The notes under the pieces were generated by a model that saw nothing but the letters and a program-made list of their open reading frames with translations, searched no databases and was not told the origin of the DNA. Positions 2,485 through 32,818 of a stretch of 64,000 nt of DNA are shown here, piece after piece. The translations under genes and the position numbers were made by a program. The DNA lies in contig NZ_AP023355.1 of NCBI RefSeq assembly GCF_016865425.1, positions 5,392,198 through 5,456,197 on the forward strand. Direction: 5' to 3'. The number at the start of each line of letters is the position of its first letter. Positions within the stretch are counted from its first letter, which is position 1. Origin of the DNA: Actinocatenispora thailandica (GTDB lineage Bacteria; Actinomycetota; Actinomycetes; Mycobacteriales; Micromonosporaceae).

Positions 2485-5400
2485 TCAGCGGGGGCCGGGG
2501 CCGGGGCGGCGGGACGCGTTGCGGCGGCGCAGCGCCGAGCGTTGCCGGGCGCGGGTCAGCGCCGAGTCGTCCGCCGAGCCGTCCAGGTGCTCGGCCAGCG
2601 CGCGAATGTTGGGGAACCGGAACAGGTCGACCACCGGTACCGGCCGGCCGATCCGAGCAGCGATCCGGCTGCCGGCCTCCACCATCGACAGCGACGTCGC
2701 ACCGAGTTCGAAGAAGTTGTCGGTGGCGCCCACCTCGGCCCGGTCCAGCAGCGCCCGCCACACCTCGGCGACCAACCGTTCGGTGTCCGTCACCGGCGCC
2801 ACCGCCCCGGTCGTCCCGGCCGGCGTTACCGCCCCGGTCGTCCCGGCGGGCATCACCGCCCCGGTCGTCCCCGTCTGCGACACCGCCCCGGCCGTCCGGG
2901 TCGGCACCTCCGGAGCGTCGCCGGCGCCCGAGGTGTCGAACCGCGGCCCCACCTCGCCGGTGACCGCATCCGGCGCGGCGGCCAGGGCACCGATCAGCGC
3001 CACCAGGCCGTCGAGCAGCGCGTGCATCCGCTCCGGCCGGTACAGGTCGGTGTTGTAGGCGGCCTCCAGCACGAACCGTCCGTCGCGCTCGGTCAGGTAC
3101 AGGGTGAGGTCGAACGGCGAACCCGGCACCGGCAGCCGCACCGGCGCGACCTCCAGCCCGGCCAGCTCCAGCCGCGGCTCGGCGAAGTTGAACACGTTGA
3201 ACAGCACCTGCACCAGCGGCGCCCGGGACGGATCGCGCGCCACCCCGAGCGCGGCGACGATCTCCTCCAGCGGGGCACCCGGGTGGGCCTCGGCGGCGAG
3301 CACCTCGCCCAGGCAGTACCGGATGTCGTCGGCGAAGCTGCCGCCGGTGGCGCTGCGCAGCCGCAGCGGCACGATGTCGACGAAGAAGCCGACCAGGTCG
3401 GTGAACGCGGTGCGGCGACGGTCGGCGACGACGGCACCGACCACATGGTCGGTGCGGCCGGTCAGCCGGCCCAGCGCCACCCCGATCGCGGCGAGGACCA
3501 CGACCGACGGGGTGGCGCCGTACCGCGCGGCGACGGCCCGTACGTTCGCGTCCGTCGCGGCCGGCAGCGGCGCCGCGAGCACCGCACCGGCGTAGGTCTG
3601 CACCGGCGGGCGGGGCCGGTCGCGGGGCAGGTCGAGCACGGTCGGCGCGTCCGCCAGGTGCTCGGTCCACCAGGCCAGGTCGGCGGTGCCCCGCGCGGAG
3701 TCCCGGTCGGCCCGCCAGGCGGCGTAGTCGGCGTAGCTGGCCGGCAGCGGCTCGGCGTCGATGCCCGAGTATCCGGCGGCAAGCTCCCGGTACAGCACCG
3801 ACTGGGACCAGCCGTCGGCGACGGCGTGGTGCAGCACCAGGCACAGCACGTGCTCGGTCGGGCCCAGCCGGAGCAGTTCGGCGCGCCACGCCGGGCCCGC
3901 CGCGAGGTCGACGACCGTACCGGCGCGCTCGCGCAGCGCGGCGGGCAGCTCGTCCTCGGTGAGATCGGTGACCGGCAGCGGAACCTCGCCGCTAGGGTCG
4001 CAGACCGGCCGCGGAACACCGTCGTGCTGCTCGATGCGCCAGCGCAGCACCTCGTGCCGGTCGGAAAGCCGGCGCAGCGCGCGGCGCAGCGCCGGGACGT
4101 CCAGCGGGCCGCGGAGGCGTTCGGCGAACGCGATGTTGTAGGCGGCGGAGTCGGGGGCGAGCTGGTCAACGAACCACAGCCGCCGCTGCGAGGGCGACAG
4201 CGTCGGCGGGTTGCCGCTGGTCGGCTCCGGGCCGGTCAGCGGCCCGGCGGCGGCGAGGCGGGCGGCGATGCCGGCCGGGGTGCGGCCGGTGAACACGTCC
4301 TCGACGGTGACGTCACGGGCGAACTGCTCGCGCAGCTCGGCGACCAGCCGCATCGCGGCGAGCGAGTGCCCACCGGCGGCGAAGAAGTCGTCGTCCGGGC
4401 CGGGACTGCCGCCCAGCACCCGGGACCAGGCGGCGGCGACCGGGTCGGCCGGCACGGCCACCGATCCGATCGGCGCCAAGGCTCGCAGCGCGTCCCGGTC
4501 CACCTTGCCGACCACGGTGAACGGCAGCGCCTCGAGCCGCACGTACCGCCGCGGCACCATCGTGTCGGTCAGCCGCCGGGCGGCGTGCGCGACGAGCGCG
4601 TCGTCGGCCGGCGCGGTCGCCGGGGCGAGGAACCCGACCAGTTCCGGGCCGATCGGGCCGGGCAGTGCCAGCACCGCGGCCTGGGTGACGTCCGGGTGCG
4701 CCTGCAGCACCGCCTCGATCTCGCCGGTCTCGACCCGCTGACCGCGGATCTTCACCTGACCGTCCCGGCGGCCGAGGAACTCCAGTTGGCCGTCCGGCCG
4801 CCGCCGGGCCAGGTCGCCGGTGCGGTACAGCCGAGCGCCGGGTCGGCCGGACAGCGCGTCCGGGACGAACCGTTCGGCGGTCAGCCGGGGCGCGTCGAGG
4901 TAGCCGTACGCCACTCCCGGGCCGCCGATCAGCAGCTCACCGGCCTCGCCGTCGGGCACCGGCCGCAACTGCTCGTCGACCAGGTACGCGGCGTGCGTGC
5001 CCACCGGCGTCCCGATCGGCGGCTCCCCGTCCGGCGCCCCGTGCAGGTCGGCGGCCAGCACGAACACCGTCGTCTCGGTCGGGCCGTACACGTTGAACAG
5101 GCGACGCTCCCGCCAGCGCCGCACCAGCGTCGGCGGCAGCGCCTCGCCACCGACCACGATGGTGCGCAGCGTCGGCAGCGCCACCGGGTCGAGCAGCGCC
5201 AGTACCGGCGGGGTCGCCACGCACCAGGTGACCTCGTGCGCGGCGGCGAAGGCGACCAGCCGGGCCGGGTCGATCCGGTCCCGGTGGCCGACCAGCGCGA
5301 CGGTGGCGCCGGTGGTCAGCGTCAGGAACAGGTCCATCACCGAGGCGTCCCAGCTCAACGAGGTGAGCCCGAGCAGCCGGTCGGCGGCGGTCGCCCCGGT

Positions 5401-5924
5401 CATCGCCCGGCAGGCGTCGACGAACTCCAGCACGCTGCGCTGGCTGACCAGGACGCCCTTCGGGGTGCCGGTCGAGCCGGACGTGTAGGTGAGGTACCCG
5501 AGTCGGTCCCGGCCGGGCGGGCCGGCCGGCACCTCCGCCAGCGGCAGGGGCACCGCGGGGACCTCCACCAGCGGCACGTCGACCGGGCCCAGCGCCTCCC
5601 GGCCGGCGGCATCGACCACGATCGCGTCCACCCGCGACTCGGTCACCAGGTGCCGCAACCGGTCCCGCGGGTGCGCCGGGTCCAGCGGGAGGTAGCCAGC
5701 GCCGGAGCCCAACACCCGAGCACCGCGACGACCATCTCGACGCCGCGCTCGGTGCACACCCCGACCAGCCCGGTACCACCGGCCGGCAGCGTCGCCGCGA
5801 GGGCACCGGCCCGGCCGAGCAGCGACGCGTAGCTCTCGGCGCGCTCCCACTGCCGTACCGCGGTCGCGTCGGGTGTCGCCCGCGCCTGCGCCAGGACCAG
5901 CGCGAACAGGCTCTCGTCAGCCAT
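2485..5924 (-). CDS. NRPS, A-T-C-T (apparent frameshift in A domain)
   Basis: Last gene of the leftward operon. Residues 1-500 are an adenylation domain (YTSGSTGTPKG, YGPTETT, YRTGD, GKVDRDAL), about 518 is a carrier Ser (GGHSL), 590-1010 a condensation domain with an intact HHAVADG (near 700), and about 1077 a second carrier Ser (LGATSLS). A domain-less C-T therefore ends the protein, so its carrier must be loaded in trans or accept a non-amino-acid partner. By GrsA alignment the A-domain pocket reads DAMVVGVVFK, which suits a hydrophobic residue but matches no code I know. The start ATG (5924) overlaps the upstream stop by 8 bases. The frame breaks at 5715-5717 after MVVAVLG; one extra G restores [20 protein letters not shown], the normal A2 motif and spacing, giving about 1146 residues. 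A sequencing error is more likely than a dead gene. Confidence 0.85.
2801..2908. repeat. Four tandem 27-bp repeats in an NRPS linker
   Basis: Four 27-bp units (2801-2827, 2828-2854, 2855-2881, 2882-2908) encode the repeated linker TTGAVxPAG between the C domain and the last carrier domain of the NRPS. The first three units share ACCGCCCCGGTCGTCCC; the fourth has diverged. It looks like linker growth by slippage. Confidence 0.8.
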
Positions 5925-8900
5925 CCATCGCCTCCGCGTCGGTGATCTGCAGCCGCAGCTCGCTGAAGTACCGGCGGCCGGCGGCGTCGGGCACCCAGCA
6001 CTCGTCGGGGGTGGGCAGCATCTCGGTGACCGACACCGGTACGTCCCGGCCGGCCCGGGTGCGCGCCCCGCGCGCCGCGTTGCACAGCGCCACCGCGAAC
6101 TGCGGGCTGGTCAGGTCGACGAAGAACGGCTTGATCTCGGTGTCGATCTTGACATAGACGCGCTCCGGCAGCCCCAGCTCGGCCCGCCACCGGCGTACCG
6201 CGAGGTAGCGAGCGGCGTCGCCGCGGGCGGCGGCGAGCCCGCTGCGGTCCACCGTGGTACGCCAGGTCTCCCGGCTGACCACCAGCCGGTCGATGGACAG
6301 CCGGGCGGTGTGCGCGGCCGGTGCCAGCAGCTTGAACCCGTCCACCGCATGCATCGCCAGCAGCGCCGAGAACAGCTCCAGCAGCGGCCGTCGCCGGCCG
6401 GCCGGGTCGGTCGCGACCAGCCCGCCGTCCTGCTCGGTGACCAGCACGCCGCTGGCCGGTAGGTGCCCCGGTGTGGCGGCGACGGGGCCGGGCGCGACAC
6501 CCAGGTGCGCGTCGTCGGCGTCGGCGAGGCTGTGCGCGACCCGGCCGGTGTGCCGCGGCCAGTCCGGCGGGTACAGCAGCCGCACCCGGCCCGGCCCCAG
6601 GTCGGCGGCGAGCGCGGCGCGCAGCCGGTCGGCGTCCGGATGCCATTCGGTGAACACCGCGCAGTCGAAGGTGGGCCAGGCGACGTGCATCTCGCCCAGC
6701 ACCACCTGGTAGTCGCCGCGCCGCAACGCGGCCACGTCGGTCGCGCAGAGCTGCAGGTCCGGGCTGTGCACGAAGCCGGCCGACCAGCCGGGCCGCTCGG
6801 CCGGGAACGCCGCGGCGACCGCGGGCGCCAGTTCCGCCGCGCTGCGCCGGACCGGGCCGTCGCCGGTGTCGCCGAACAGGCCGGCCCAGCGCGCCGCGAA
6901 CTGCGCCGCGACCGCGTCGACCGGCCGGTCCCCGCCGCCCCACAGCGGGCCCTGCGCCAGGTACCACAGGTCGGACAGCCGCACCGGACCCGGCTCGGCG
7001 GCCAGTTCCCGGTACAGCTCGTGCAGCGCGTCGCCGTACGCGTCGGCGAGCGCCACGGTCAGCCAGCGCGCCGCCCGCAGCAGGATGTCCAGCGGCCCGG
7101 CCAGCTCGTCGAGCAGCGGGCGGCCGAACACCACGTCGAGGTCACGGTCGGTGTCCTCGTAGCACAGCGCCCGGCCGGCGTAGGTCTGCCCGGCCCGCCG
7201 CTGCGCCGGCTGGCCGGTCACCGCCTCGAACGTCTCGGCCAGCCCGCCGAGCGCGGCGCGCAGCGCCTCCGGGTCGCCGGCCGCGGCAGCCACCGCGTCC
7301 CGGGCCGCGTCCAGCCGGTCCAGGCCGCGCCGCGCGCTGCCGCGCTCCGGTTCGGTGCCGATCGCGGCGATCCGCTCCCGCAGCACCGCCTCGGCGTCCG
7401 GGTGCAGCGGCAGGTCGGCGCCCCAGCGCAGCAACCCCTGCCGGACCAGGCCGTCGAGCAGCAGGTACCCGTCGTCGGCGCGGCGCAGGCCCAGCTCCGG
7501 CGCGGTCGACAGCTCGGCGACCACCTCGACGGCCGGCCTGCCGTCCGCCGCCGACAGCGCCGCCGCGGCCGCCGCGGACAGCGACACCGGCGGTTGCGCC
7601 GGCCGGTACGCCAGCCTGCCGTCCCGGTGGATCTCCGGCGAGACCACCACCGGCAGCCAGCGCCGGATCGCCGGATCGTCGGCGAGCCGCTGCGCGTACG
7701 CGTCGAGTGCCCAGGTCTCGTAGTGCACCCGGCGGCGCCGGGTCAGCCCGCTGCCGGGCCGGACCGTGGCCACCTCGGCCAGCTCCGGATCGACGGTGAC
7801 CCAACAGGTCGGGCCGAAGAAGCCGATCGTGTCGTTCTTCCCGCAGTACCGCTGCCAGTAGCGGATCAGCGCGGTCTCCCGCTCCCGCCGCTTGGACGGG
7901 CGGCCGGTGCCGCGGCCGGGCAGCAGGTGGTCCAGGCCGGTCAGCGCGTTGAGGTTCTGCCAGCCGACCGCCTCGCGCAGCAGCGGATCCGCGGCCAGCT
8001 CGGCCGCCACCGCCGAACCCCGCGCCACCGCAGCCTGGTACGCGGCAACGAAACGGTCGTCGTGGACCGCCCGCTGCGGGTCGACCGGTACCAGCGCGTC
8101 GGCGGTCGCGGCGAGTTCCGGCGCGGCGAACCGGTCCAGCCCGGCGGCCGGGAACCCGGTGCCGCGCAGCAGCGCGTCCCGCCACACCGACCAGCCGGTG
8201 TCCCCCAACGGCGCCCGGTGGTCCGCCGACCGGGTCGCACCGGATCCGGCAGCGGACGCCGGTGCGCCGGGCGGCCGGCCGGCCGGCGAGCGGCCGGCGT
8301 GCAGGTCGTCCCGGATCAGCGTGGCCAGCTCGGCGAGCGCATCGTGCGGGAAGAAGTGGCCGCCGGGCAGCTGGTGCCCGCGAACCTCGGTGTCGGTGTG
8401 TCGCTGCCAGCCGGCCAGCCGCGCCGGCGGTACCGCCTGGTCGGACGCGCCGGCGAAGGTGGTCACCGGGACCGGCAGCGGCCCCCGCGGCTGGTACCGG
8501 TACGCCTCCAGCCAGGCCAGGTCGGCCCGCAGCACCGGCAGCAGCAGGTCGAGCAGGTCCGGCGCGTCGAGCAGTTCGGTGGGCATCCCGCCGGCCGCGA
8601 CCACCCGGGCCACCAGCCGGTCGCGGGCAGCGCCGCGATGTTGTCCAGCGGCCCGTCACCGGCCTCGTCGGGTGGCCGGCCGGCGGCCACGAACAGCCGC
8701 TCCGGCAGCCGGTCACCGCGCTCGGCCAGCACCCGGGCCACCTCGTAGCCGAGCCGGGCGCCCAGCGAGTGCCCGTACAGCGCGAACCGCGGGCCGGCGT
8801 CGGCCACGATCGCGTCGGCGATCGCGACCGGATCCAGTGTCAGCGGCTCGCCGTACCGGCCCTCCCGGCCGGGCAGCTTCACCGGGACGATCTCCACCTC

Positions 8901-9053
8901 GGCACCGAACGCGGCCGGCCAGTGCCGGAACGCGCTGGCGCCGGCGCCGGCGTAGGGCAGGCAGTACAGCTGCCAGGTGGCGTCGGGGCGCCGCGCCGGC
9001 CGCGGGAACCAGCGGTCCACCGCGGTGCGGGCGGCGTCGTCGATCCCGGTCAT
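5917..9053 (-). CDS. Type II thioesterase fused to LanB-like (lantibiotic dehydratase N) domain
   Basis: About 1045 residues in two parts. Residues 1-260 are a type II-like thioesterase of the alpha/beta hydrolase fold: LYCLPYAGAGAS, nucleophile Ser near 94 in YGHSLGARLGYE, catalytic His near 233 in GGHFFPHD. After a Gly/Pro/Ala linker, residues 300-1045 resemble the N-terminal tRNA-dependent aminoacylation domain of lantibiotic dehydratases (CGKNDTIGFFGP near 406, then KIDTEIKPFFVDLTSPQFAV and the terminal YFSELRLQI). The elimination (SpaB_C) domain is absent, as in peptide aminoacyl-tRNA ligases. No lanthipeptide precursor or cyclase is nearby. The ATG at 9053 overlaps the PKS stop (ATGA). 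The frame breaks inside the thioesterase at 8625-8627; adding one C to that run gives NIAALPRDRLVARVVAAGG and rejoins Ser and His in one chain. Confidence 0.8.
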
Positions 9054-12000
9054 CGCGGCCGGGCCAGCCGCGGGATCGCCGCCGCGGGCGCCTCGGTGGC
9101 GGCGTCCCGGCGCTGCTCGACCAGCTCCGCCATGCCGGCCACGGTGGTCGTCTCGAACAGGCTGCGCATCGGCAGCTTCACCCCGGTCGCGGTGCGCACC
9201 TTCCCGATCAGCTGCACCGCGACCAGCGAGTTGCCGCCCAGGTCGAAGAAGTCGTCGTCCCGGCCGACCGCCGGCACGCCGAGCACCTCGGCCCAGATCG
9301 CCGCCAGCTGCGCCTCCAGCTCGGTACCGGGTGCCGCCTCGTCGCCGAGCGCCCCGCCCGCGTCCGGATCGACCGGCCCGGTGAGCGTGTCGATGGTCGC
9401 GGCGGCCGCCGCGAGTTGCTCGTCCATCGGCCGCACCGACACCGCGACCTGCGGCCCCAGCCCACCGGACAGCAGCCGCCACAGCACCTCGGCGCCGTCC
9501 GCCGGCGCGATCCCGCCCGCCGCACCGCTGCCGCCCGCGGTACCGCCGGGCGGCGTGCTGCCGCGGTCCGCCGCCGCGGCACCTGGTGACAGCGCACCGG
9601 CCGGTGCCGGCGCGGCCCCGCCCGCCGGGGGTGCGCCGGACGCCGGGGTGGCCTGCACGGTGCTGGCCATCGCCGCCGGGTCGACCCGGCGCAGCATGAA
9701 GTCGGCGATGTCGACCAGCACCCGGCCGTCGTCGTCCAGCAGCCGGATGTCGGCGGTGGTGACCTCGTCGCCGGGCTGCCCGACCGCGTGCGCCCACAGC
9801 CGCGCCGGCAGCGGCGCGTGCACGGTGATCCGGCCGTACCCGAGCGGCAGGAACGAGCCGCCCTCGACGTCGAGCAGGCTGGTCGCCTCGTCCAGCAGCG
9901 CCGGGTGCAGCGGCCAGTCGGCGAGTTCGGCCGCGACCGCCGGCGGCGCGACCAGCCGGGCCAGCACCTCGCCGGCACCCCGGTGGACGGCGCGCAGGTT
10001 CTGCCAGCGGCCACCGAACTCGACCAGCCCGGACCGGGACCGGTGGCTCGTCACCTCGGTGCCGGCACCCAGCCGATCGCGCAGCTCGGCCACCGCGATC
10101 GGTTGCGGCGCAGCGGTGCGCACCCAGGCGGCGGTGCCGCGTACGTGCGGGCCCGCGCCGGTGGCGACCGTGACGTCGTACCCGTCGTCGCCGGGACGCA
10201 GCCGCACCTGCACGGTCGTCTCGGCACCGTCCGGCACCGCCAGCGGCGCGACGAACGCCACGTCGCGCAGCTCCACCACGGCGTCCGCGGCGGGCGCCGG
10301 CACCGCCGCGGCCAACGCCGCCCGGATCAGCTCCAGATGGCCGGTGCCGGGCAGCACCGGCACCCCGGCGATCCGGTGCTCACCCAGCACCCAGTCGCTG
10401 GCGGGCCCGAGCCGGCCGCGGACCACCGAACCCGGCCCGTCGTCGACCCGGTCGGTCAGCACCGGATGCCGCACCGCGCGCACCGCCCCGGCCGGTCCGG
10501 CAGCGGAGTCGGCGTCGGCCGGCGATCCCACCGCGAGCGCGCCGGCACCGGCAGCGGACGAGGCAGCCTCGGCGGTACCGCCGAGCGCGGCCGGGCGGGC
10601 GGTCTCGACTGCCATGCCGACCTCGCTCCAGGCACCCCAGTCGACGCTGAGCACCGGGCAGCCGAACCCGCCACCGTGGTGCGCCACCGCATCCAGGTAG
10701 GCGTTCGCCGCGGCGTAGTCGGCCTGACCGAGCCCGCCGACCACGCCGGTCACCGACCCGCACAGCACCACGAAAGCCAGGTCGAGGTCGCCGAACACCT
10801 CCGCCAGCGCGCGGGTGCCGGCGAGCTTGGGCGCCAGTACCGCCTCGACCGCCTCCCGGGTCTTCACCTCGATCAGGCCGCCGCCCGGGACACCGGCGGC
10901 GTGCACGATGCCATCCAGCCGGCCGTACTCGGCGAGGATGCGCTCGCGCACCACCCGCAGCGCGGTCGCGTCGGTGACGTCCGCGGCGACCGGCAACACC
11001 TGGCCGCCGGCCGCCTCGATGCGCCGGATCGCGGCCACCGTGCGGCCGATGCGATCGCCGCCGCCGGCCAGCGCCGCCCACTGGTCACGCGGCGGCAGCG
11101 GGGTGCGGGCCAGCAGGACGATCCTCGCCCGGCAGCGGCGGGCCAGGTCCTCGGCGACGGTGCCGCCGATCCCGCCGGTGCCACCGGTGATCAGGTACAC
11201 GCCGCCGTCGGGCAGCGAATCGGCCGCCGCCGGCAGCGGCACCGGCTCGAAGCCGGGCGCCCAGCGCCGGCCGCGGCGCAGCGCCACCGTCTGGCCGTAC
11301 TCGCCGGACGGTGGCACCCGCAGCTCGGCGGCGACCGCCGCCACGTCCGACGAACTGGCCGCGTCGACGTGCCGGACGGTGACCACGCCGGGCAGCTCGG
11401 TCGGCAGCGACCAGGCGGCCGCCGCGGCGCCGGCCGCGACCGGGTCGGTCACGTCGCCGCCCAGCACCGCCCGGGTACCGGCGGTGACCACGTCCAGGTG
11501 CACCGGGCCGGGCAGCGACGCCTCGGCCAGTGCCTGGCCGAGCGCGACGATGCTGTGCACCGCCTCGTCCACCCCGGAGTCCGGGCCCGAGTGCTGGTGC
11601 TGGGTCCCGGGAGCCGCCGACCGGACCGTCCAGGCGTGCACGACCCGCTGCGGGACTCCGGAACCCGCCGCCAGCTCGGCGAGCAGCGCCGCGTACCCGG
11701 CGCGGTCGGCCGGGGCGAGCGCGGGCGCCCGTACCGTGTCGGGGCCGAGTGCGGTGGCGAGCGCGTCGCCGTACTCGCCGTCGGCCAGCAGCAGGCAGCG
11801 CGGGGCCGCCGGCACGTCGACGGCCGGCGGCAGCTGCCGCCAGACCGGCACGCTGCACCACTGCGCCATGCCGCGGTCCACCGGCGCCGGGGCGGGCGCC
11901 GGTGCGGCCGACGGCGCCGGGTCGACCCAGTGGTAGCTGCGCTCGTACGGGTAGGTCGGCAGCGGGATCCGCCGCCCCGGCTGGCCGAACCCGGCCAGGT

Positions 12001-14506
12001 CGACGCCGGCCGCCCAGAGCCGACCGGCCGCCGCGTACAGGGGGGCGAGATCGCCCTGCCGGCCGTCCGGGCCCGGCAGGCTCGGCACCGGCAGCCGCTC
12101 GTCCCGTGGGATCTGCATCCGGGCCAGCCCGACCAGCTGGTTGCCCGGCCCGCACTCGACCGCGAGCCAGTCGCCGTCGGCGCGCAGCCGCGCCACGCAG
12201 TCACCGAACCGGACCGGCTCGCGCAGGTGCGCCGCCCAGTACGCCGGGTCGGTGGCCTGCTCGGCGGTGATCCAGTCGCCGGTGCGGTTGGACAGGTATC
12301 GGCGCTGCGGCGCGTGCCGCGGCACCGCGGCGACCAGCTCGGCGAACTCGGCGAGCACCGGGTCCATCGACGCGGAGTGGAACGCGTGCGAGGTGCGCAA
12401 CCGCCGACGGCCGACCCCGCGCCCGGTCAGCTCCTCCGCGTAGCGGTCGATCAGGTCCGCCGGCCCGGACACCACGCAGGTGCGCGGCCCGTTCACCGCC
12501 GCGACGTCCAGCCCGGCCGGCAGCGACTTGGCGACCTCGTCGGCGGCCAGCTGCACGGCGAGCATCGAGCCCGGCGCCGCCGACTGCATCAGCCGACCCC
12601 GGGCCGCCACCAGTCGCAGCGCGTCGGCCGGCGCGAACACGCCGGCCAGGGTGGCCGCCACGTACTCGCCGATGGAGTGGCCGATCATCGCCGCCGGCGC
12701 CACACCCCAGGACTCCCAGAGCCGGGCCAGCGCGTACTCGACGGTGAACAGCGCCGGCTGGGCATGCCGGGTCTGCTGCAGCGTCTCGCCGTCGGCGGCA
12801 AGCGGGTCGGCGCCCAGCACCGCGGCGCACTCGGCCACCGCGGCGGCGAACACCGGCTCCGCGGCCCGCAGCTGCGCTGCCATTCCCGCGTACTGCGCGC
12901 CCTGGCCGGAGAACAGGAACGCCACCTGCGGCGCGGACCTGCCGACCCGGTCGGTGTGCCGTTTGCGGTCGGCCAGCGCCCGCACCGCGCCGGCGGTGTC
13001 CTCGGCCACCACCACGGTGCGGTGCGGATGCGCCTCGCGCCCGACCCGCAGCGTGTACGCGACGTCGGCCAGCGGCGTGTCCGGTGCCTCGGTGAGCCGG
13101 GCGGCGAGCTGGTCGACCACGGTGGCCAGCGCGGTCTCGGACCGGGCCGACAGCTGGATCAGCTCGACCGGCCGCGCCGGAGCGGCCGCCGGCGCCGCCG
13201 CCGGCGCCTCCTCCAGCACCACGTGCGCGTTGGTACCGCCGATGCCGAACGAGCTGACCCCGGCCCGGCGCGGCCCGTCGTCGGCCGGCCAGCCGGACAG
13301 CATCGCGTTGACGTAGAACGGGCTGGTGGTGAAGTCGATCGCCGGATTCGGCGACTCGTAGTTGATGCTCGCCGGGATCAGCTTGTGCTGCAACGCCAGT
13401 ACCGTCTTGATCACCCCGGCGACACCGGCCCCCTGGGACAGGTGGCCGATGTTCGACTTCACCGAGCCCAGCGCGCACCAGCCGGCGTCGTCGGCCTGCG
13501 CGCCGTACGCCGCGGACAGCGCGGCCACCTCGATCGGGTCACCGAGTGCGGTGGCGGTACCGTGTGCCTCCACATAGGACACCGTGCGCGGGTCGATGTC
13601 GGCCATCGCCAGCGCCTGCGCCACCACGTCGGTCTGGCCCTCGACGCTGGGCGCCGAGAAACCGACCTTGGCCGCACCGTCGTTGTTGATCGCGTTGCCG
13701 AGGATCACCGCCCGCACGTCGTCGCCGTCGGCCAGCGCGTCGGACAGCCGCTTGAGCACGATCACGCCGCCGCCGCTGCCCCACAGGGTGCCGGCGCCGC
13801 GGGCGTCGAACGGCCGGCAGTGCCCGTCCGGCGCGGTGATCCCGCCGTCCTGCGCGATGTAGCCGCCACCGTGCGGCAGCTCGATGCACACCCCGCCGGC
13901 CAGCGCCATGTCGCACTCGCCGTTGCGCAGCGCCTCGCAGGCGAGGTGGATCGCCACCATCGAGGTGGAACAGGCGGTGTGCAGGGTGAAGCTCGGCCCG
14001 CGCAGGTTCAGCTTGTACGACACCAGCGTCGCGACGTAGTCCGGGTTGTTGCCGATGTTGACCGCGAGGTTGCCGGCGGCGTCGGCCAGCCGCGGGTTCG
14101 CCCGCACGTTCTTCCACAGATAGTCGGTGGCACCGGTACCGGCGTAGACGCCGACCAGCCCCGGGTAGCGGGCCGGATCGTAGCCGGCGTCCTGCAACGC
14201 GGTGTGCGACAGCTCCAGGAACAGCCGGTGCTGCGGGTCGGCGACGTCGGCCTCCCGACGGCTCATCCCGAACAGCCCCGGATCGAAGTACTCGATGTCG
14301 TCGATCACCGGTGCGGCGGCGACGAAGTCGGGATGGTCGACCATCTCGGCCGGCAGCCCCAGCTTCAGCTGCTCGTCCCGGTTGGAGAACCGGATCGACT
14401 CGACGCCGTCGACCAGGTTCGACCAGAACTGGCCGGCGTCCCGGGCGCCCGGCACCCGGCAGGCCAACCCCACCAGTGCGATGCGCTCGACGTTGTCCTC
14501 GGTCAT
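9050..14506 (-). CDS. Type I PKS module KS-AT-KR-DH-ACP
   Basis: 1818 residues. The KS (1-430) has Cys in HTACSTSMVAIH, His in EAHGTATALGDP and His in KSNIGHLSQGAG, so it should extend. The AT has GHSIGEY near 609 and HAFH near 707, the malonyl-CoA signature. The KR has GGTGGIGG near 1109 and Ser/Tyr/Asn in CGSVTGVVGG and QADYAAANAYL. A DH follows the KR: HRIAGVPVLPG near 1379 fits HxxxGxxxxP, and LHPALLDEATS supplies the Asp although the usual Gln is missing. The ACP Ser is in LGGNSLVAVQ near 1760. A Gly/Pro/Ala-rich linker lies before the ACP. Expected chemistry is one malonyl extension, ketoreduction and dehydration to an enoyl unit. Both ends overlap neighbouring genes by 4 bases (ATGA), so translation is coupled. 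Confidence 0.92.
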   Translation of the reverse strand: MTEDNVERIALVGLACRVPGARDAGQFWSNLVDGVESIRFSNRDEQLKLGLPAEMVDHPDFVAAAPVIDDIEYFDPGLFGMSRREADVADPQHRLFLELSHTALQDAGYDPARYPGLVGVYAGTGATDYLWKNVRANPRLADAAGNLAVNIGNNPDYVATLVSYKLNLRGPSFTLHTACSTSMVAIHLACEALRNGECDMALAGGVCIELPHGGGYIAQDGGITAPDGHCRPFDARGAGTLWGSGGGVIVLKRLSDALADGDDVRAVILGNAINNDGAAKVGFSAPSVEGQTDVVAQALAMADIDPRTVSYVEAHGTATALGDPIEVAALSAAYGAQADDAGWCALGSVKSNIGHLSQGAGVAGVIKTVLALQHKLIPASINYESPNPAIDFTTSPFYVNAMLSGWPADDGPRRAGVSSFGIGGTNAHVVLEEAPAAAPAAAPARPVELIQLSARSETALATVVDQLAARLTEAPDTPLADVAYTLRVGREAHPHRTVVVAEDTAGAVRALADRKRHTDRVGRSAPQVAFLFSGQGAQYAGMAAQLRAAEPVFAAAVAECAAVLGADPLAADGETLQQTRHAQPALFTVEYALARLWESWGVAPAAMIGHSIGEYVAATLAGVFAPADALRLVAARGRLMQSAAPGSMLAVQLAADEVAKSLPAGLDVAAVNGPRTCVVSGPADLIDRYAEELTGRGVGRRRLRTSHAFHSASMDPVLAEFAELVAAVPRHAPQRRYLSNRTGDWITAEQATDPAYWAAHLREPVRFGDCVARLRADGDWLAVECGPGNQLVGLARMQIPRDERLPVPSLPGPDGRQGDLAPLYAAAGRLWAAGVDLAGFGQPGRRIPLPTYPYERSYHWVDPAPSAAPAPAPAPVDRGMAQWCSVPVWRQLPPAVDVPAAPRCLLLADGEYGDALATALGPDTVRAPALAPADRAGYAALLAELAAGSGVPQRVVHAWTVRSAAPGTQHQHSGPDSGVDEAVHSIVALGQALAEASLPGPVHLDVVTAGTRAVLGGDVTDPVAAGAAAAAWSLPTELPGVVTVRHVDAASSSDVAAVAAELRVPPSGEYGQTVALRRGRRWAPGFEPVPLPAAADSLPDGGVYLITGGTGGIGGTVAEDLARRCRARIVLLARTPLPPRDQWAALAGGGDRIGRTVAAIRRIEAAGGQVLPVAADVTDATALRVVRERILAEYGRLDGIVHAAGVPGGGLIEVKTREAVEAVLAPKLAGTRALAEVFGDLDLAFVVLCGSVTGVVGGLGQADYAAANAYLDAVAHHGGGFGCPVLSVDWGAWSEVGMAVETARPAALGGTAEAASSAAGAGALAVGSPADADSAAGPAGAVRAVRHPVLTDRVDDGPGSVVRGRLGPASDWVLGEHRIAGVPVLPGTGHLELIRAALAAAVPAPAADAVVELRDVAFVAPLAVPDGAETTVQVRLRPGDDGYDVTVATGAGPHVRGTAAWVRTAAPQPIAVAELRDRLGAGTEVTSHRSRSGLVEFGGRWQNLRAVHRGAGEVLARLVAPPAVAAELADWPLHPALLDEATSLLDVEGGSFLPLGYGRITVHAPLPARLWAHAVGQPGDEVTTADIRLLDDDGRVLVDIADFMLRRVDPAAMASTVQATPASGAPPAGGAAPAPAGALSPGAAAADRGSTPPGGTAGGSGAAGGIAPADGAEVLWRLLSGGLGPQVAVSVRPMDEQLAAAAATIDTLTGPVDPDAGGALGDEAAPGTELEAQLAAIWAEVLGVPAVGRDDDFFDLGGNSLVAVQLIGKVRTATGVKLPMRSLFETTTVAGMAELVEQRRDAATEAPAAAIPRLARPR

Positions 14507-15969
14507 CGTCGACCTCCGGTCTCGGCTCGATCCCCGTTGCCGTTCGATCCCTGTGCTGCCCGGTCCCGTTGCCGGGCCGACCCGCGGGTCGCTTCCGGAC
14601 CGGCTGCCCGGTCGGCGCGGTCCGGTCGCCCGGCCGGCTCGATCCAGTGCCGTTGGCGGCGGAACCGGTGGGCCGGCAACGGGGTGCGGCGCGGCCCGTC
14701 GGCCGGAGCCGGCTCCCCCAGTACGACGTGCGCGGTGGTGCCGCCCAGCCCGATCGCGCTGACCCCGGCGTACCGGGGGCCGGGCGTCGGCCATCGGCGG
14801 GTCGTGGTGGCGATCTCGAACCGGCCGGCGGCGAGGTCGACGTCCGGGTGCGGCGCCTCGACGTGCAGGCTCGCCGGGACGACCCCGTCGCGCACCGTCA
14901 GCGCCGCCTTGATCAGCCCGGCGACCCCGGCCGCCGCGTCCAGGTTGCCGATGCTCGGCTTCACCGAGCCGAGCAGGCAGCCGTCGGCCGCCCCGGCGAA
15001 CACCGAGCCGAGCGCGCGTACCTCGATCGCGTCGCCCAGCGGGGTGCCGCTGCCGTGCGCCTCCAGGTAGCCGATGTCGGCCGGCGTCAGCTCCGCGGTG
15101 GCCAGCGCCTCCGCGACCGCGTCGGCGAGGCCGGCCACTCCCGGTACCGCGAAGCCACCGCGCCGGGCGCCGTCGTTGGTGACCGCCCAGCCGCGCAGCA
15201 CCGCGTACACCCGGTCGTCGGTGACGTCCTCGCATCGCTTCAGCACCACCCCGGCGGCGCCGCTGCCGTACCGGGTGCCCTGCGCCTTGGCGTCGAACGC
15301 GCGGATCACGCCGTCCGGCGACAATCCCGCCCGGGCCAGATAGCCCGACGGTGTCGTCGCCGCCACCGAGGAGCCGCCCGCGATCGCCAGATCGCAGCGG
15401 TAGTCGAGCAGGCTCTGCGCCGCCAGGCAGACCGCGACCAGCGACGACGCGCACGCCGCCTGGGTCGCCACCGCCGGCCCGGTCAGCCCGAGCTTGTACG
15501 CGGTGCGCAGCGGCAGGTAGTCGGGCGCGTGACCGGGCGGCATCGGCTCGTCCGCGGCGCCGAGCCGGTCCGGCCGGTACAGGTGGCGCAGGAAGTACCG
15601 GTTGACCGAGGTGCCGGTGAACACGCCGACCGGCGCGTCGAGCCGGCCCGGCTGTTCTCCGGCGTCCTGCAACGCGTGCCAGGCGACCTCCAGGAACAGC
15701 CGGTGCTGCGGGTCGATCTCGGCCGCCTCGGCCGGGGTGTAGCCGAAGAACTCGGCGTCGAAGTCCTCGATGCCGGGCAGGTAGCCGCCGGCCCGCACGT
15801 ACCGCGGGTCGGCCAGCAGCTCGTCGCCGACCCCGGCGGCGCGCAGCTCGACGTCGGAGTACCGGTGGATCGCGTCGACGCCGGCCCGCAGGTTGTCCCA
15901 GTAGCCGGCGACGTCGGCGGCGCCGGGCAGCCGGGCCGCCATCCCGACGATCGCGATCTCGTCGCTCAT
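14503..15969 (-). CDS. Stand-alone ketosynthase lacking AT; second active-site His replaced by Asn
   Basis: 488 residues, a complete type I KS with no other catalytic domain. The nucleophile Cys is present (QAACASSLVAV, near 171) and the first His (EAHGSGTPLGD), but the usual KSNxGH motif reads KPSIGN, with the Asn codon at 14944-14946. KSs that lose this His cannot decarboxylate the extender and act as non-elongating transfer domains in trans-AT systems. The tail PLPAHRFRRQRHWIEP is the linker normally found after an AT, so the AT may have been lost by deletion. The gene lies between the NRPS with an A-T end and the full PKS module, which suits a gate passing an aminoacyl chain to the PKS. 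Both ends overlap neighbours (ATGA). Confidence 0.88.
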   Translation of the reverse strand: MSDEIAIVGMAARLPGAADVAGYWDNLRAGVDAIHRYSDVELRAAGVGDELLADPRYVRAGGYLPGIEDFDAEFFGYTPAEAAEIDPQHRLFLEVAWHALQDAGEQPGRLDAPVGVFTGTSVNRYFLRHLYRPDRLGAADEPMPPGHAPDYLPLRTAYKLGLTGPAVATQAACASSLVAVCLAAQSLLDYRCDLAIAGGSSVAATTPSGYLARAGLSPDGVIRAFDAKAQGTRYGSGAAGVVLKRCEDVTDDRVYAVLRGWAVTNDGARRGGFAVPGVAGLADAVAEALATAELTPADIGYLEAHGSGTPLGDAIEVRALGSVFAGAADGCLLGSVKPSIGNLDAAAGVAGLIKAALTVRDGVVPASLHVEAPHPDVDLAAGRFEIATTTRRWPTPGPRYAGVSAIGLGGTTAHVVLGEPAPADGPRRTPLPAHRFRRQRHWIEPAGRPDRADRAAGPEATRGSARQRDRAAQGSNGNGDRAETGGRR

Positions 15970-18830
15970 CGGGCACCCCGCCGGGCCGCCCGGCGCGCCA
16001 TCCGCGCCGCCAGCCGCTCCCCGCCGGCGCCCGCCGCCATCTCGGCGCGCCGCGCCCCACCACCGTCCATTGTGGACACGTTGGTCGCGGCGGCGATCCG
16101 GCGCGCCAGCGCGCTGACCGTCGGGTACTCGAACAGTTCCGGCAGCGGCAGCCGCACCCCGAGGTCACGTTCCAGCCGCCGCTGCACGCCGGCCAGCGCC
16201 AGCGAGTGGCCACCCAGGTCGAAGAAGTTGCGGTCCACGTCGACGAGCGGCACGCCCAGCTCCGCGCTCCAGGCCGCGGCCACGGTACGCACCAGCGGAT
16301 CGTCCGGCAGTGCCCCGGCGGCGGGCGCCGGCGGGGCGGGCAGCGCGGCGACGTCCACCTTGCCGGTCGGCGTGGTCGGCAGCGCGTCGAGCACCACCAC
16401 CGCCCGGGGCACCAGATAGTGCGGCAGCCGCTCGGACAGCTGCGCCAGCAGCCGGTCCGCGGTCAGCCCGGCCGACCCGGACACGTAGCAGACCAGTTCC
16501 CGCTCGGCCGGCACCGTGCCGGCCGGCCGGTCCCGGGCCACCGCGACGGCCTGGCGCACACCGGGCAGCTCGGCCAGCACCGCTTCGATCTCGCCGAGTT
16601 CCACCCGGTACCCGCGGATCTTCACCTGCCGGTCGACCCGGCCCAGGTGCACCAGCCGGCCGTCGGACAGTCGCCGGGCCAGATCACCGGTGCGGTAGGT
16701 CCGGGCGTCTCCGGCGGTCGGGAACGGCCGGCCGACGTACCCGATGGCGAGGTGCCGGCTGCGCACCACGACCTCGCCGAACAGTGCCGCCGGCGCACCG
16801 GAGGGGGTGCACAGCGTCACCTCGATGCCCGGCAGCGGGTGGCCGACCGGCACCAGCCCGCCGGCCGGCGGCGCGGTCAGGTGGTCCTGCGCGATGAAGC
16901 TGATCTCGGTGGCGCCGTAACCGTTGACGAACACGCCGTCCGGCGCGAAGTGCCGCCAGTAGGCGACCGCGTCGGCGGCGTGCACCGCCTCGCCGCCGAG
17001 CAGCACCACCCGGATCGCCGGCAGCCGACCGCCGTCCAGCGCCGCGACCAGATGCCGGTACACCGTCGGGGTCGAGTGGTAGACGCTGACCTGGCGCTCC
17101 TGCAACGCGTCGACCAGATGCGCCAGCCCGTGGGTACGGATGTCCACCGGCACCGCCGCCGCCCCGGACAGCAGCGCCGAGAACAGGTCGGTGATCGCCA
17201 TGTCGAAGCTGAACGAGCTGAGCACCGCGACCCGGTCGTCCGGGTCGATGCGCGCGTTGTCGATGTGGTTGCCGGCCGCGAACAACACGTTGCGGTGGCT
17301 CTGCACCACGCCCTTGGGCAGCCCCGTCGACCCGGACGTGTACAGCACGTACGCCTCGGCGTCCGGGTCGGTGTCGGGCACCGGCAGCGGCGCCGCGGGC
17401 AACCCGGACACGTCCAGCACCCGGACGGCGGGTGGCAGCGTGCCGCGCGCCGTTCGCCCGCTCGCCGCCTCGGCGGTCAGCTCCGCGGCGAGGCGACGGG
17501 TACTGGCATCGACCAGCACGGTGTGCACACCGCTGTCGCGCAGCAGGTGCGCCAGCCGCGCCGGCGGGTACGACGGGTCGGCCGGCACGTAGGCGGCGCC
17601 GGCGGCGAGCGTACCGAGGATCGCCGCGACCGTGCTGGCGCCGTGGCCGAGCAGCACCGCGACCCGGCCACCGGCCGGCACGCCGGGGCCGGCGGCTGCC
17701 CGGTCACCGGCCGTCCCGCCGGCGGCGATCGCCCGCGCGACGCCACCGGCCGCCGCGGCCAGCGCGGCGTAGCCGAGGGTGCCGTCGTCGGCCAGCACCG
17801 CGGGCCGATCGGGCTGCGTGGCGGCCAACTCGGCGAACCGGCCGAGCACCGTGCCGGTGCGCTGCGCGGGGCGCCACCCGACCGAGGGGCGGTGCCGGTC
17901 ACCGAGTTCGGGCGGCCGGCGGCGCTCGATGGTCATCCGGTCCGGCAACTCGCCGGCGGTCAGGGTGGCGGCCAGGTCGGCGGCCAGGCACCCGGCGAGG
18001 GCGTCGTCGACCACCTGCCGGTCGTGGCCCAGCCAGACCCGGTTCCCGGTCACCACCACGACCAGGTCGCACGGGTACCACCCGGCGGCCAGGACCAGCT
18101 CGGCCACCTCGTCGGTGCACCCCGGCACCATCGCATCGCCGGTCACCAGCCAGACCGACGCCGCCGCCGGCGCCTCCTGGTACGGCACGCCCGCCGCCGG
18201 CGTTTCCTGATACGGCACGCCCGCCGCCGGGCTGGCCCCGGTCGTACCGGCGTCGACCGGATCGACGGCCGCGGCGCCGACGGGATCGGCCGCACCGGCC
18301 GCGTCGTCACCGCTCAGGATCAGCCGCGGGCCGGACTCGCCGGCGACCGCGCGAGCGATCGGGAACCCGACGGTACCGGTGTAGCGGGTCAGCACCGCCC
18401 GCAGCGCGCGCTGCACCTGGTGTGCCGAGCCGGCGTGATCGGCGGCTACCGCGCACCAGCCGTCCACGCCGTGCCGTGACTCGACCACCCGCCCCGGCGC
18501 CAGTTCCGGCGCCACCCAGTCGTGCCGCACCGCCGGTGCCAGCGCAGCGGTCCTGGACCGGATCGCTGGCCTGGCCGGCCGGCCGAGGAGGTCCGTCCAG
18601 GCCCCGGCGAGCGACCGGTGGTCGAACCCGCCGTCGGCGTCGACCTCGAGCCGCGCCGCGCCGGGACCGGCCTGCCGCCCGGGAGGCGCTTCGCTCCAGG
18701 AAACCCGCCACCCCGGATGCGCCTCGTGCCAGGCCGGCAACCGCGGTGTCACCTCCGCCGGATCGACGATCGCGGTGCGCCGCAGCGCATCCGGCGGTAC
18801 CGACGGGTAGCGGGAGCCGAGCGTGGTCAC
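15966..18830 (-). CDS. NRPS: degenerate condensation-like region, A, T
   Basis: 954 residues from a GTG (18830) that overlaps the upstream stop as GTGA. Residues 1-300 have no HHxxxDG; short stretches (ADHAGSAHQVQRALRAVL; WYPCDLVVVVTGNRVWLGHD) resemble halves of a condensation domain, so I read it as a degenerate, truncated C domain. Residues 325-800 are an adenylation domain (YTSGSTGLPKG near 498, YGATE, YRTGDLARR, TGKVDVAAL), and a carrier Ser is in LGGHSLALAG near 875. The pocket reads DMTHLGGFIK by GrsA alignment, an unusual code I cannot assign; Asp235 argues for an alpha-amino acid rather than beta-alanine. Placement after panD and before the lone KS suggests it loads the starter or the unit handed to the PKS. 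Confidence 0.85.
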   Translation of the reverse strand: MTTLGSRYPSVPPDALRRTAIVDPAEVTPRLPAWHEAHPGWRVSWSEAPPGRQAGPGAARLEVDADGGFDHRSLAGAWTDLLGRPARPAIRSRTAALAPAVRHDWVAPELAPGRVVESRHGVDGWCAVAADHAGSAHQVQRALRAVLTRYTGTVGFPIARAVAGESGPRLILSGDDAAGAADPVGAAAVDPVDAGTTGASPAAGVPYQETPAAGVPYQEAPAAASVWLVTGDAMVPGCTDEVAELVLAAGWYPCDLVVVVTGNRVWLGHDRQVVDDALAGCLAADLAATLTAGELPDRMTIERRRPPELGDRHRPSVGWRPAQRTGTVLGRFAELAATQPDRPAVLADDGTLGYAALAAAAGGVARAIAAGGTAGDRAAAGPGVPAGGRVAVLLGHGASTVAAILGTLAAGAAYVPADPSYPPARLAHLLRDSGVHTVLVDASTRRLAAELTAEAASGRTARGTLPPAVRVLDVSGLPAAPLPVPDTDPDAEAYVLYTSGSTGLPKGVVQSHRNVLFAAGNHIDNARIDPDDRVAVLSSFSFDMAITDLFSALLSGAAAVPVDIRTHGLAHLVDALQERQVSVYHSTPTVYRHLVAALDGGRLPAIRVVLLGGEAVHAADAVAYWRHFAPDGVFVNGYGATEISFIAQDHLTAPPAGGLVPVGHPLPGIEVTLCTPSGAPAALFGEVVVRSRHLAIGYVGRPFPTAGDARTYRTGDLARRLSDGRLVHLGRVDRQVKIRGYRVELGEIEAVLAELPGVRQAVAVARDRPAGTVPAERELVCYVSGSAGLTADRLLAQLSERLPHYLVPRAVVVLDALPTTPTGKVDVAALPAPPAPAAGALPDDPLVRTVAAAWSAELGVPLVDVDRNFFDLGGHSLALAGVQRRLERDLGVRLPLPELFEYPTVSALARRIAAATNVSTMDGGGARRAEMAAGAGGERLAARMARRAARRGAR
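18171..18230. repeat. Two tandem 30-bp repeats in an NRPS linker
   Basis: Two copies (18171-18200, 18201-18230) share TACGGCACGCCCGCCGCCGG and encode AAGVPYQExP twice, in the N-terminal degenerate C-like region of the NRPS. It is a spacer that has grown by duplication, in line with that region being under weak constraint. Confidence 0.75.
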
Positions 18831-20176
18831 GAGGTGCCCAGCAGGACCTTGGCGATGTCGGCCACGCTGCGCACCGGCACGGTGTCGGTGGCGGCCAGCG
18901 GTGGATAGTCGTCGACGGTGTAGCTGCCGGAGGCGTGCACCACGATGTCCGTGCCGTCCGGCACCAACCCTCGCTGCACCGCGTTCAGCACCCCGGTCAG
19001 CGCCATCACCAGGGAGAACTCCCGCAGCCGTCGCGGATCGGCCGGCAGCGGCCGGTCGGTGGCCGACAGCAGCTCGCGGATCTGCGGGTAGCGCTGCAGG
19101 CACTCGTGGAGCGAGACCACGATGCCATCGCCGCCGTACCGGGCGATCAGCTCGTTCATCGCCGGCGAGGTGGCCGGCGCGTGCGAGTAGAACGTCGGGT
19201 CCAGCACCTCGTCCGGATCGTAGGTGGTGTAAGGGAAGTGCGGGTCGGCGTCCTGCCGGTACAACCCGCCGGCCGCCTGGTACGCCGGGAGCAGGGCACG
19301 GTCGAACCCGCCCCGGCGCAGGCTGAGCACCATGTCCGGGGTGTCCAGATGCTGCACCAGCAGGAATCCGGGGCGCTGCGCCGGCTCGGCCACCCCGCGC
19401 TCCTCCAGCACGTCGCGGCCCAGGTTGTAGCCGAGCAGCCCGAACGCGCTGGACACCGCGTGCGCGTGCCAGCGCGGTGCGGCACCGACGGTGGGCGCCA
19501 CGTCGTGCTCGAAGAAGGCCCGTGCCGCGTCGGCGACCAGGTAGTTGCGCAGTTCCAGGGAGAACCACAGGTGCGCGCCGAGCTTCCCCGCGTACTGGTC
19601 GGCGAACTCCCGCGCCAGTGCCTTGACTCCTTCGGAGCGCTCCCCGTCGTACAGGAAGATCGGGTTGCGCCGCGGGTCCAGCGCGGCGTCGCCGGTGGAC
19701 AGGCCGCCGCGCAGCTTCGGCTGGCAGCTGGCCGGCGCCACGATCGCGATCCGCAGCTGGTCGGCGGTGACCAGGCCGCAGCGGATCGCCCGCTGCACCG
19801 CGTCGCGCAGCGCGGTGCCCTTGTTCGCCGAGGTCGGCGTGAAGATCAGCACCGGCTCGCCGGTCTGCCGGATGAACTCCACCGCACGCGCCACGATCAG
19901 CAGCGAGGCGAACGTCTTGGTGGTCCGGGTGCCGGGGGCCCGGGTGAGGTCCAGCAGCTGCAACCGACCGGAGTCGTGCTCGCCGAGCTGCCACCAGCGG
20001 GCTTCGGCCACCGAGAAGAACTCGCGCAGCCGGTCGTCGAGTTCCGGGAACCGGAAGCCCGGCGAGAACGCGACCGGGTCGGCGACCGGTGACGGGTCGT
20101 GCACCCGGGCGGCCACCACCTCCGGCAGCCGGTCGTAGTAGTCGAGGATCAGGTTCGCGGTCGGCGGGTGCGACAT
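18827..20176 (-). CDS. Threonine synthase-fold (PLP fold-type II-like) protein of unknown function
   Basis: 449 residues. The order of motifs recalls threonine synthase and other fold-type II PLP enzymes: a Lys in RTTKTFASLL (compare SFKDR), a phosphate-binding-like TPTSANKGTALRDA, and IVAPASCQPKLRGG. The overall sequence is not a standard threonine synthase. I recall a family annotated as DUF6002 found next to panD and NRPS genes, but cannot confirm membership here. It lies 63 bases after panD and overlaps the following NRPS start (GTGA), so it is part of the biosynthetic operon. A role in making or rearranging an amino acid building block is plausible. No membrane segment or signal peptide is visible. 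Confidence 0.6.
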   Translation of the reverse strand: MSHPPTANLILDYYDRLPEVVAARVHDPSPVADPVAFSPGFRFPELDDRLREFFSVAEARWWQLGEHDSGRLQLLDLTRAPGTRTTKTFASLLIVARAVEFIRQTGEPVLIFTPTSANKGTALRDAVQRAIRCGLVTADQLRIAIVAPASCQPKLRGGLSTGDAALDPRRNPIFLYDGERSEGVKALAREFADQYAGKLGAHLWFSLELRNYLVADAARAFFEHDVAPTVGAAPRWHAHAVSSAFGLLGYNLGRDVLEERGVAEPAQRPGFLLVQHLDTPDMVLSLRRGGFDRALLPAYQAAGGLYRQDADPHFPYTTYDPDEVLDPTFYSHAPATSPAMNELIARYGGDGIVVSLHECLQRYPQIRELLSATDRPLPADPRRLREFSLVMALTGVLNAVQRGLVPDGTDIVVHASGSYTVDDYPPLAATDTVPVRSVADIAKVLLGTS

Positions 20177-20599: not shown

Positions 20600-20907
20600 G
20601 CGCCAGTTCACTCCCCGTGGAAAGGCAACGGCGCAGCGCAGACCGGCATCCGTTTCGCCGGAATGATGCGGCACCCGTCGGTCGGACCGAGTCGCTCCAT
20701 ATCGGCCACCGTGGATCTCGCGGTGACCTGCGGCGATCGTAGGTACGGTCTCGGGCACCTGCAACCCCTGTCGATCCATACGGTGGAAACGCCTGGGACA
20801 TAACGGATTTCCGCCATTTTGGCCTTGCGCCGGTCGGCTATCGTCTGCATGCCCGGTAGCGGTCCGGTTGAGCTGACGCGCTGGACGACACGACCTCAGG
20901 AGCTGAC
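20600..20907. promoter_or_regulatory. Divergent control region of the NRPS-PKS cluster
   Basis: This 308-base gap separates the two operons of the cluster and holds no convincing gene. Leftward: TTGCAG (20759-20764) and TACGAT (20736-20741) are 17 bases apart on the minus strand, giving a leader of about 130 bases before panD. Rightward: TATCGT in GGCTATCGTCTG could be a -10, without a good -35. AGGAG at 20898-20902 is the ribosome binding site of the MbtH gene. I see no clear operator palindrome. Confidence 0.6.
20736..20764 (-). promoter_or_regulatory. Promoter candidate for the panD-led operon
   Basis: TTGCAG-N17-TACGAT on the minus strand, matching the TTGNNN-17-TANNNT pattern. It is the best match in the divergent region and would drive all seven leftward genes. 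Confidence 0.5.
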
Positions 20908-21114
20908 ATGGCCGACGAGCTGCACAGCGTGGTGCACAACGACGAAGGTCAGTACTCGACCTGGCCGGCCGATCGCGAGCTGCCGGCCGGCTGGCACCGG
21001 TCCGGCTTCACCGGGCCGCGGAACGACTGCCTGGATCACGTCGAGAAGGTCTGGACCGACCTGCGGCCGGCCAGCCTGCGGGCGGCGACCGAGCAGGCCG
21101 GCAACCGTGACTGA
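20908..21114 (+). CDS. MbtH-like protein, NRPS adenylation chaperone
   Basis: 68 residues with the family signature: [20 protein letters not shown], a [18 protein letters not shown] tail and three conserved Trp. MbtH proteins bind the N-terminal part of A domains and are needed for folding or activity of many actinobacterial NRPSs. AGGAG lies 5 bases before the ATG. It heads the rightward operon and its stop overlaps the NRPS start by 8 bases, so its cognate partner is probably the following NRPS, though it may serve all A domains in the cluster. Confidence 0.95.
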
Positions 21115-27309: not shown

Positions 27310-27373
27310 CCGCGAGCGGGAGGCGCCGGGCATCGCGACGACCGGGTCGACCGACGTTCCGGGAGGTGCGCCG

Positions 27374-32818
<5,445 letters not shown>

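Follow-up and report, generated by a model that had tools for sequence, protein, structure and literature searches.

Proteins annotated as lantibiotic dehydratases are encoded in about two thousand gene clusters for nonribosomal peptide synthetases (NRPS) and polyketide synthases (PKS) (PMC11212132), and SnaE is the only one of them with a demonstrated role in the literature that we found. This report concerns a related protein, in which a LanB-like domain follows a thioesterase; it is encoded at positions 5917-9053 on the minus strand of a 64,000-nucleotide stretch of the Actinocatenispora thailandica genome (assembly GCF_016865425.1, contig NZ_AP023355.1, positions 5,392,198 to 5,456,197). 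The whole stretch is referred to as the window.

SnaE is an annotated lantibiotic dehydratase of Stackebrandtia nassauensis, where it is encoded in the NRPS-PKS cluster of the threopeptin pathway (Yu and van der Donk, ACS Cent Sci 2024, PMC11212132; preprint PMC10769383). It is required for the addition of Thr to a ureido-linked bis-arginyl product, against the direction of the assembly line (PMC11212132; PMC10769383). The free carboxylate that SnaE uses comes from the action of a ureido-forming condensation (C) domain with the signature EHHXXHDG (PMC11212132). Members of the group that are fused to a thioesterase are already mentioned, as uncharacterised proteins, in the 2024 paper (PMC11212132), and a literature search that left out most subscription journals turned up no study of the function of a thioesterase-fused ligase. 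The existence of the fused members is already known.

The original prediction, made from the letters of the window, placed the protein in an NRPS-PKS setting, and this is borne out by the flanking genes: the coding stretch lies between a PKS gene and an NRPS gene and has start/stop overlaps with both, at 9050-9053 and 5917-5924, respectively. Its parts are as follows.

8616-9053, minus strand: N-terminal piece of the thioesterase with the nucleophile motif GHSLG, frame A (PF00975, E = 1.6e-15); its ATG overlaps the PKS stop
8600-8640, minus strand: frame break between the two thioesterase pieces; congeners have intact copies
8218-8613, minus strand: C-terminal piece of the thioesterase with Asp and His (GGHFF), frame B, then the linker to the LanB-like domain (PF00975, E = 7.3e-7)
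5917-8217, minus strand: LanB-like domain, predicted to be of the peptide aminoacyl-tRNA ligase (PEARL) type, 766 amino acids plus stop (PF04738, E = 3.8e-27), with R18, Y120, R123, E509, H511, E753 and R755 (numbered from 8217)

Family and diagnostic residues of the LanB-like domain

Pfam assignment, profile matching and predicted fold all agree with the original prediction that the second half of the protein belongs to the LanB superfamily. PF04738 (Lant_dehydr_N) is the sole family found in the window domain and in all 35 members scanned. When a profile built from 35 members was compared with the PDB, the only significant sequence was TbtB (6ec7, E = 5.3e-11), the glutamylation domain of thiomuracin biosynthesis; five others had E values of 0.1 to 0.93. 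The AlphaFold2 model of the domain has a mean pLDDT (predicted local distance difference test) of 90.5 and a pTM (predicted template modeling score) of 0.90, and its 11 Foldseek matches in the PDB with E values of 0.001 or less are entries of MibB, TbtB, MadB, NisB and GodF. All are LanB-type proteins, GodF among them, and none lies outside the superfamily. The elimination domain had been described as missing, and a profile search for PF14028 indeed found none in the protein, in the rest of the window genome or in three congeners. This absence is meaningful because the same search, run on 250 genomes of the family to which the window belongs, was positive in 134 of them; it was also positive in 7 of the 14 genomes of one set.

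ATP-using PEARLs are told apart from ATP-independent dehydratases by the residues of the ATP site (PMC11962472, PMC12945691 and PMC11212132). These residues are Asp558, Glu813 and Arg815 in BhaB7 and Glu542, Glu801 and Arg803 in TglB (PMC11962472), and the PEARL residues at the tRNA end are Tyr205 and Arg208, together with the N-terminal Arg34/Arg10 (PMC11962472; PMC12945691). By position and pattern, E509, E753 and R755 of the window protein would correspond to TglB E542, E801 and R803 and to BhaB7 D558, E813 and R815; likewise R18, Y120 and R123 would correspond to BhaB7 R34, Y205 and R208.

We compared 49 ligase-type sequences with 20 dehydratases. The former are 35 family members, seven Streptomyces plasmid relatives (loci L110-L114) and seven pearlin-like proteins from a single Kitasatospora locus (L115); the 35 were taken from more than 100 LanB copies and include members with no nearby thioesterase. 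The latter are three split dehydratases and 17 with a fused elimination domain, namely L116 and 16 others drawn from 17 of the 30 loci matched; the remaining one, L131, lies outside the aligned set and, read separately, lacks the Arg discussed next. The Arg of the C-terminal E-x-R motif (753-755) is present in 35 of 35 family members, 7 of 7 plasmid-borne and 7 of 7 pearlin-like proteins and in none of the 20 dehydratases, all of which keep the Glu and have V, I or T, and once N, at the Arg position. The acid of the G-E-x-H motif (509) is similarly distributed (35/35, 7/7 and 6/7, or 48 of the 49 ligase-type sequences, vs 0/20). The LanB copies from 72 loci that are 2.1 kb or longer number 105; both motif patterns occur in 104 of them, and the single exception is frame-broken. 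All 35 family members have R18, Y120 and R123; in most of the fused dehydratases the aligned stretch stops short of these columns.

In a tree of 53 rows, 42 NRPS- and plasmid-linked ligases form one group (100/90). In the same tree the dehydratase L116 is a long branch among the ligase groups, and we do not trust the backbone.

By these residues, the LanB-like half appears to be of the PEARL type and is best read as an SnaE-type amide ligase, which would use ATP and aminoacyl-tRNA. The original prediction had offered two activities, tRNA-dependent addition of an amino acid or dehydration of Ser. The former is the better of the two and has a published precedent in SnaE (PMC11212132). The latter is disfavoured: the 20 dehydratases compared lack the ATP-site residues that the family keeps, and PF14028 is missing.

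The thioesterase and its tie to the ligase

The stretch 5917-9053 is 3137 nucleotides long, which is not a multiple of three, so that it holds more than one open reading frame in this assembly. Frame A carries the N-terminal thioesterase piece and frame B the remainder (5917-8613), and the switch lies inside the thioesterase at about 8625-8634. Actinocatenispora comari (L033, genome G001), which has 92% identity to the window in the LanB-like part, and a further congener (G003) encode the thioesterase and the LanB-like domain in a single frame. Because two congeners keep it so, we regard the fusion as real and the window copy, or its assembly, as broken. The original prediction is therefore right that both halves are present and, in the congeners, fused, but it overlooked the frame break: there is no single open reading frame of 1045 residues here. 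Two more breaks occur in the adjacent NRPS genes, near 5710 (5709-5712) and 21482 (21481-21484), and G003 is intact at both. That large genes contain three breaks within 16 kb points to indels in the assembly; the breaks may also be real gene decay in this strain.

The signature of a type II thioesterase, a GHSxG nucleophile plus a catalytic His, is present in the window, although spread over the two frames. The PF00975 match on the C-terminal piece ends near 8308, and the closest solved structure to this piece is RifR (3fla, E = 6.6e-13). Among relatives, the Ser and His motifs were read in all 48 linked thioesterases (45 by pattern and three by eye). Judged by its motifs, then, the fused thioesterase is competent.

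Other fusions of this kind were looked for, as the original prediction had proposed, in 72 loci from named genomes. These were collected in a single scan that used short peptide patterns taken from the window protein and hence are a biased sample, and a thioesterase near the ligase was detected by its likeness to that of the window. The thioesterase and ligase are in one frame in 37 of the loci; in 11 the thioesterase is adjacent but not in the same frame (in two of these, L093 and L098, the ligase is broken or matched in part), and one is partial. Most of these linked pairs lie in a conserved NRPS-PKS cluster. With 37 of the 72 related loci carrying it in a single open frame, the fusion is not a chance event. 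The ligase domain itself was matched in 161 of the 354 genomes searched in the family of the window. Micromonospora loci usually have a second ligase directly behind the first, and the two copies sit on different branches of the 53-row tree, which would fit different amino acids or substrates. Two Streptosporangium loci (L062 and L070) have three ligase matches each, incomplete in L070.

Twenty-one loci were mapped. A window-type NRPS-PKS cluster is present in 14 of them, two from Actinocatenispora and 12 from Micromonospora, Nonomuraea, Streptosporangium, Planobispora, Saccharothrix, Microtetraspora, Actinokineospora, Catellatospora and a metagenome-assembled genome (MAG) of Actinophytocola. 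The other seven, from Actinomadura, Rhodococcus, Pseudopropionibacterium and MAGs, have a related ligase that is set among different genes. In the 14 cluster loci the ligase block is followed by an NRPS with the domain order adenylation (A), thiolation (T), C and T (L005 ends inside the A domain). Upstream of the block, the 12 loci outside Actinocatenispora have a stand-alone ketosynthase (KS), and a thioesterase lies between KS and ligase in 10 of them, none being detected in L064 and L079. In the two Actinocatenispora loci it is the PKS gene that lies upstream. The coupling to the PKS gene on which the original prediction drew is consequently not general, and the 12 loci with a stand-alone KS rule it out as a conserved feature.

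Some further relatives deserve mention. Two Streptomyces plasmid loci (L111, 11453-19562, and L112, 6193-14250) each encode, in a compact unit, two ligase-type LanB proteins, an A domain, a pyridoxal phosphate-dependent enzyme, an acyl carrier protein (ACP) and MbtH. On a plasmid of Streptomyces sp. NBC_01216 (L113, 10161-19842), a ligase-type LanB protein is accompanied by a methylaspartate mutase, an ACP, an AMP-binding protein, an ATP-grasp protein and a GTP cyclohydrolase II. A related ligase lies inside an NRPS set in L114, and in L110 the sole gene of this sort encodes an AMP-binding protein and is some 13 kb distant. To judge from these loci, a broad part of the ligase family is tied to carrier proteins. 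The Kitasatospora sp. NBC_00039 plasmid (L115, 7410-25165) encodes seven LanB-like proteins in a row, interrupted by one hypothetical gene, along with TldD-type proteases. Four of the seven are annotated as hypothetical and no scaffold peptide is annotated; the locus looks like a large pearlin-type cluster.

Proposed supply of the carboxylate to the ligase

How would an assembly line pass a carboxylate to a tRNA-dependent ligase? The SnaE-style reversal of the chain by a ureido linkage was considered and rejected. A six-frame search of the window did not find EHHXXHDG, and its four C domains are of another type (in the one at 21.4 kb, which a frame break splits, visual inspection gave VHHAVFDA). 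The signature is likewise absent from the 50 readable C domains among 62 C-domain matches in the fetched loci of relatives.

We think it probable, though not strongly so, that the LanB half has PEARL-type ligase chemistry to which the thioesterase is functionally coupled. The ligase domain would phosphorylate a free carboxylate using ATP, the amine of an aminoacyl-tRNA would attack the activated carboxylate, and the tRNA would be cut off later, leaving the chain one amide-linked amino acid longer. The thioesterase would free the chain from an ACP or a peptidyl carrier protein (PCP) as the acid, the carboxylate that the ligase needs. Three things suggest such a source of the acid: the ligase requires its carboxylate in free form, no ureido route was found, and a competent thioesterase is part of the protein itself. 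Relatives carry between one and three ligase copies; where these are in tandem, each may contribute one residue. With less confidence, and as a tentative proposal, we suggest an off-loading by hydrolysis followed by extension: the thioesterase would release the finished NRPS/PKS chain from its carrier, and the fused PEARL, joined in relatives by one or two tandem PEARLs, would activate the new carboxylate again with ATP and add ribosomal amino acids from aminoacyl-tRNA. The use of ATP and tRNA, the identity of the amino acid, the order of release and extension and the substrates are the parts of this scheme that we infer. The original prediction had the enzyme act on a carrier-bound chain, and this is doubtful because PEARLs activate a free carboxylate.

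Several points weigh against this interpretation. The link is not obligatory, as no thioesterase was detected near the ligase in 23 of the 72 loci, and the window copy of the thioesterase-ligase is itself frame-broken. Type II thioesterases usually proofread, and chain release by this one is something that we infer. Among the C-domain matches of relatives, 12 of 62 have no readable motif. As to the ligase residues, E753, Y120 and R123 do not discriminate, since they are also found in dehydratases (the last two where covered); the H511 column holds His in 4 of the 17 fused dehydratases; one of the seven pearlin-like proteins has no acid at 509; and the equivalence of the residues comes from an alignment with the putative pearlin-like cluster L115 together with published residue numbers.

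Some of these points lead to other explanations. For example, an SnaE-like ligase might extend a different carboxylate, in a side chain or at the start end, and the type II thioesterase might merely clear misloaded carriers. The terminal carboxylate that SnaE extends lies away from the carrier (PMC11212132), RifR is the solved structure closest to the thioesterase piece, and the loci with no detected thioesterase would also be accommodated. However, no ureido-type C domain occurs among the readable ones, and mere editing would hardly account for a thioesterase that is covalently joined to the ligase and not to a synthase; we consider this explanation rather unlikely. It is improbable that the amine of the aminoacyl-tRNA attacks the carrier thioester or the acyl-enzyme of the thioesterase directly, with release and amide formation in one step. 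This would suit a ligase fused to a competent thioesterase and the carrier proteins and A domains that adjoin related ligases on Streptomyces plasmids, but it would have no need of the ATP-site residues, and all 35 members keep these. Finally, the fold is the same as that of glutamylation domains and the one significant PDB sequence match is to such a domain, as would be expected if the protein glutamylated and dehydrated Ser/Thr in an assembly-line product. The discriminating ATP-site residues, found in all 35 members and in none of the 20 dehydratases, and the lack of PF14028 in the window genome make this very improbable.

The proposed coupling of release and extension would have consequences. 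If it is true, between one and three amino acids would be missing from the products predicted for this cluster family, and if hydrolysis precedes extension, the translation pool would write the C-terminus of a nonribosomal product in a cluster type common to several actinomycete families. The family is compact and conserved, it includes one-frame fusions in named Micromonospora strains, and the ureido logic of SnaE was not found with it. It makes the route by which assembly lines pass a carboxylate to a tRNA-dependent ligase a general question that can be tested.

Neighboring genes and comparison with known systems

On the minus strand, the order of the genes is DUF6002, A-T, stand-alone KS, a PKS module with KS, acyltransferase (AT), ketoreductase (KR), dehydratase (DH) and ACP domains, thioesterase-ligase and A-T-C-T. 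The neighbors are as follows.

2485-5924, minus strand: NRPS A-T-C-T, downstream of the LanB-like domain, with a break near 5710; C motif LHHAVADG, non-ureido
9050-14506, minus strand: PKS module KS-AT(HAFH)-KR-DH-ACP, the upstream neighbor
14503-15969, minus strand: stand-alone ketosynthase KS1
15966-17850, minus strand: NRPS A-T, start uncertain
18827-20176, minus strand: DUF6002 protein
20849-32818, plus strand: divergent NRPS genes, with two C and two A domains and then C-A-T-thioesterase and a major facilitator superfamily (MFS) domain; break near 21482

The divergent set carries its own terminal thioesterase. Ketosynthases usually have the motif NIGH where KS1 reads SIGN; one catalytic His is thus replaced by Asn, which is also present in 8 of 51 related KS1 copies. 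Relatives of the DUF6002 protein border the cluster in Nonomuraea (L060), Planobispora (L065), Saccharothrix (L064) and Catellatospora (L079), and in the loci of these four genera they adjoin relatives of another window protein (34953-36140, minus strand) that has no Pfam match. No paper mentioning DUF6002 turned up in the literature search. An aspartate 1-decarboxylase (PF02261; 20243-20779, minus strand) lies within the cluster and may mean that beta-alanine serves as a building block; as a conserved cluster member it was rejected, with a match in one searched locus (L079), although many loci stop short of the region. The 64-kb window contains no dedicated tRNA gene. The gene overlaps at 5917 and 9053 leave no room there for a precursor gene, and no exhaustive search for small open reading frames was made. 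About 30 kb before the window there are LanC-like matches (G000:C1:5361085-5362157), though the genome shows no class I elimination domain.

As to the known systems, the LanB-like half resembles the class I dehydratases and glutamylation domains NisB, MibB and TbtB in fold and in the tRNA-site residues. It differs from them in the Arg of E-x-R and the acid of G-E-x-H, which the 20 dehydratases compared do not have, and in that dehydratases work with an elimination domain. By position and pattern, it shares the ATP-site and tRNA-site residues with TglB, BhaB and AmmB, the PEARLs of ribosomally synthesized and post-translationally modified peptides. Those enzymes extend a ribosomal scaffold peptide, whereas here NRPS/PKS genes surround the ligase and no scaffold gene was seen, the search for one not being exhaustive. 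Like SnaE, the protein belongs to PF04738 and is encoded in an NRPS-PKS cluster in which no elimination domain was found; the SnaE cluster has no precursor peptide, and none was seen here in a search that was not exhaustive. The PEARL-like amide formation of SnaE is predicted here as well. Unlike this protein, SnaE has a ureido-forming C domain in its pathway, of a type not found here, and it stands alone, with SnaD as a separate thioesterase; in the family described here, the thioesterase is fused to the ligase.

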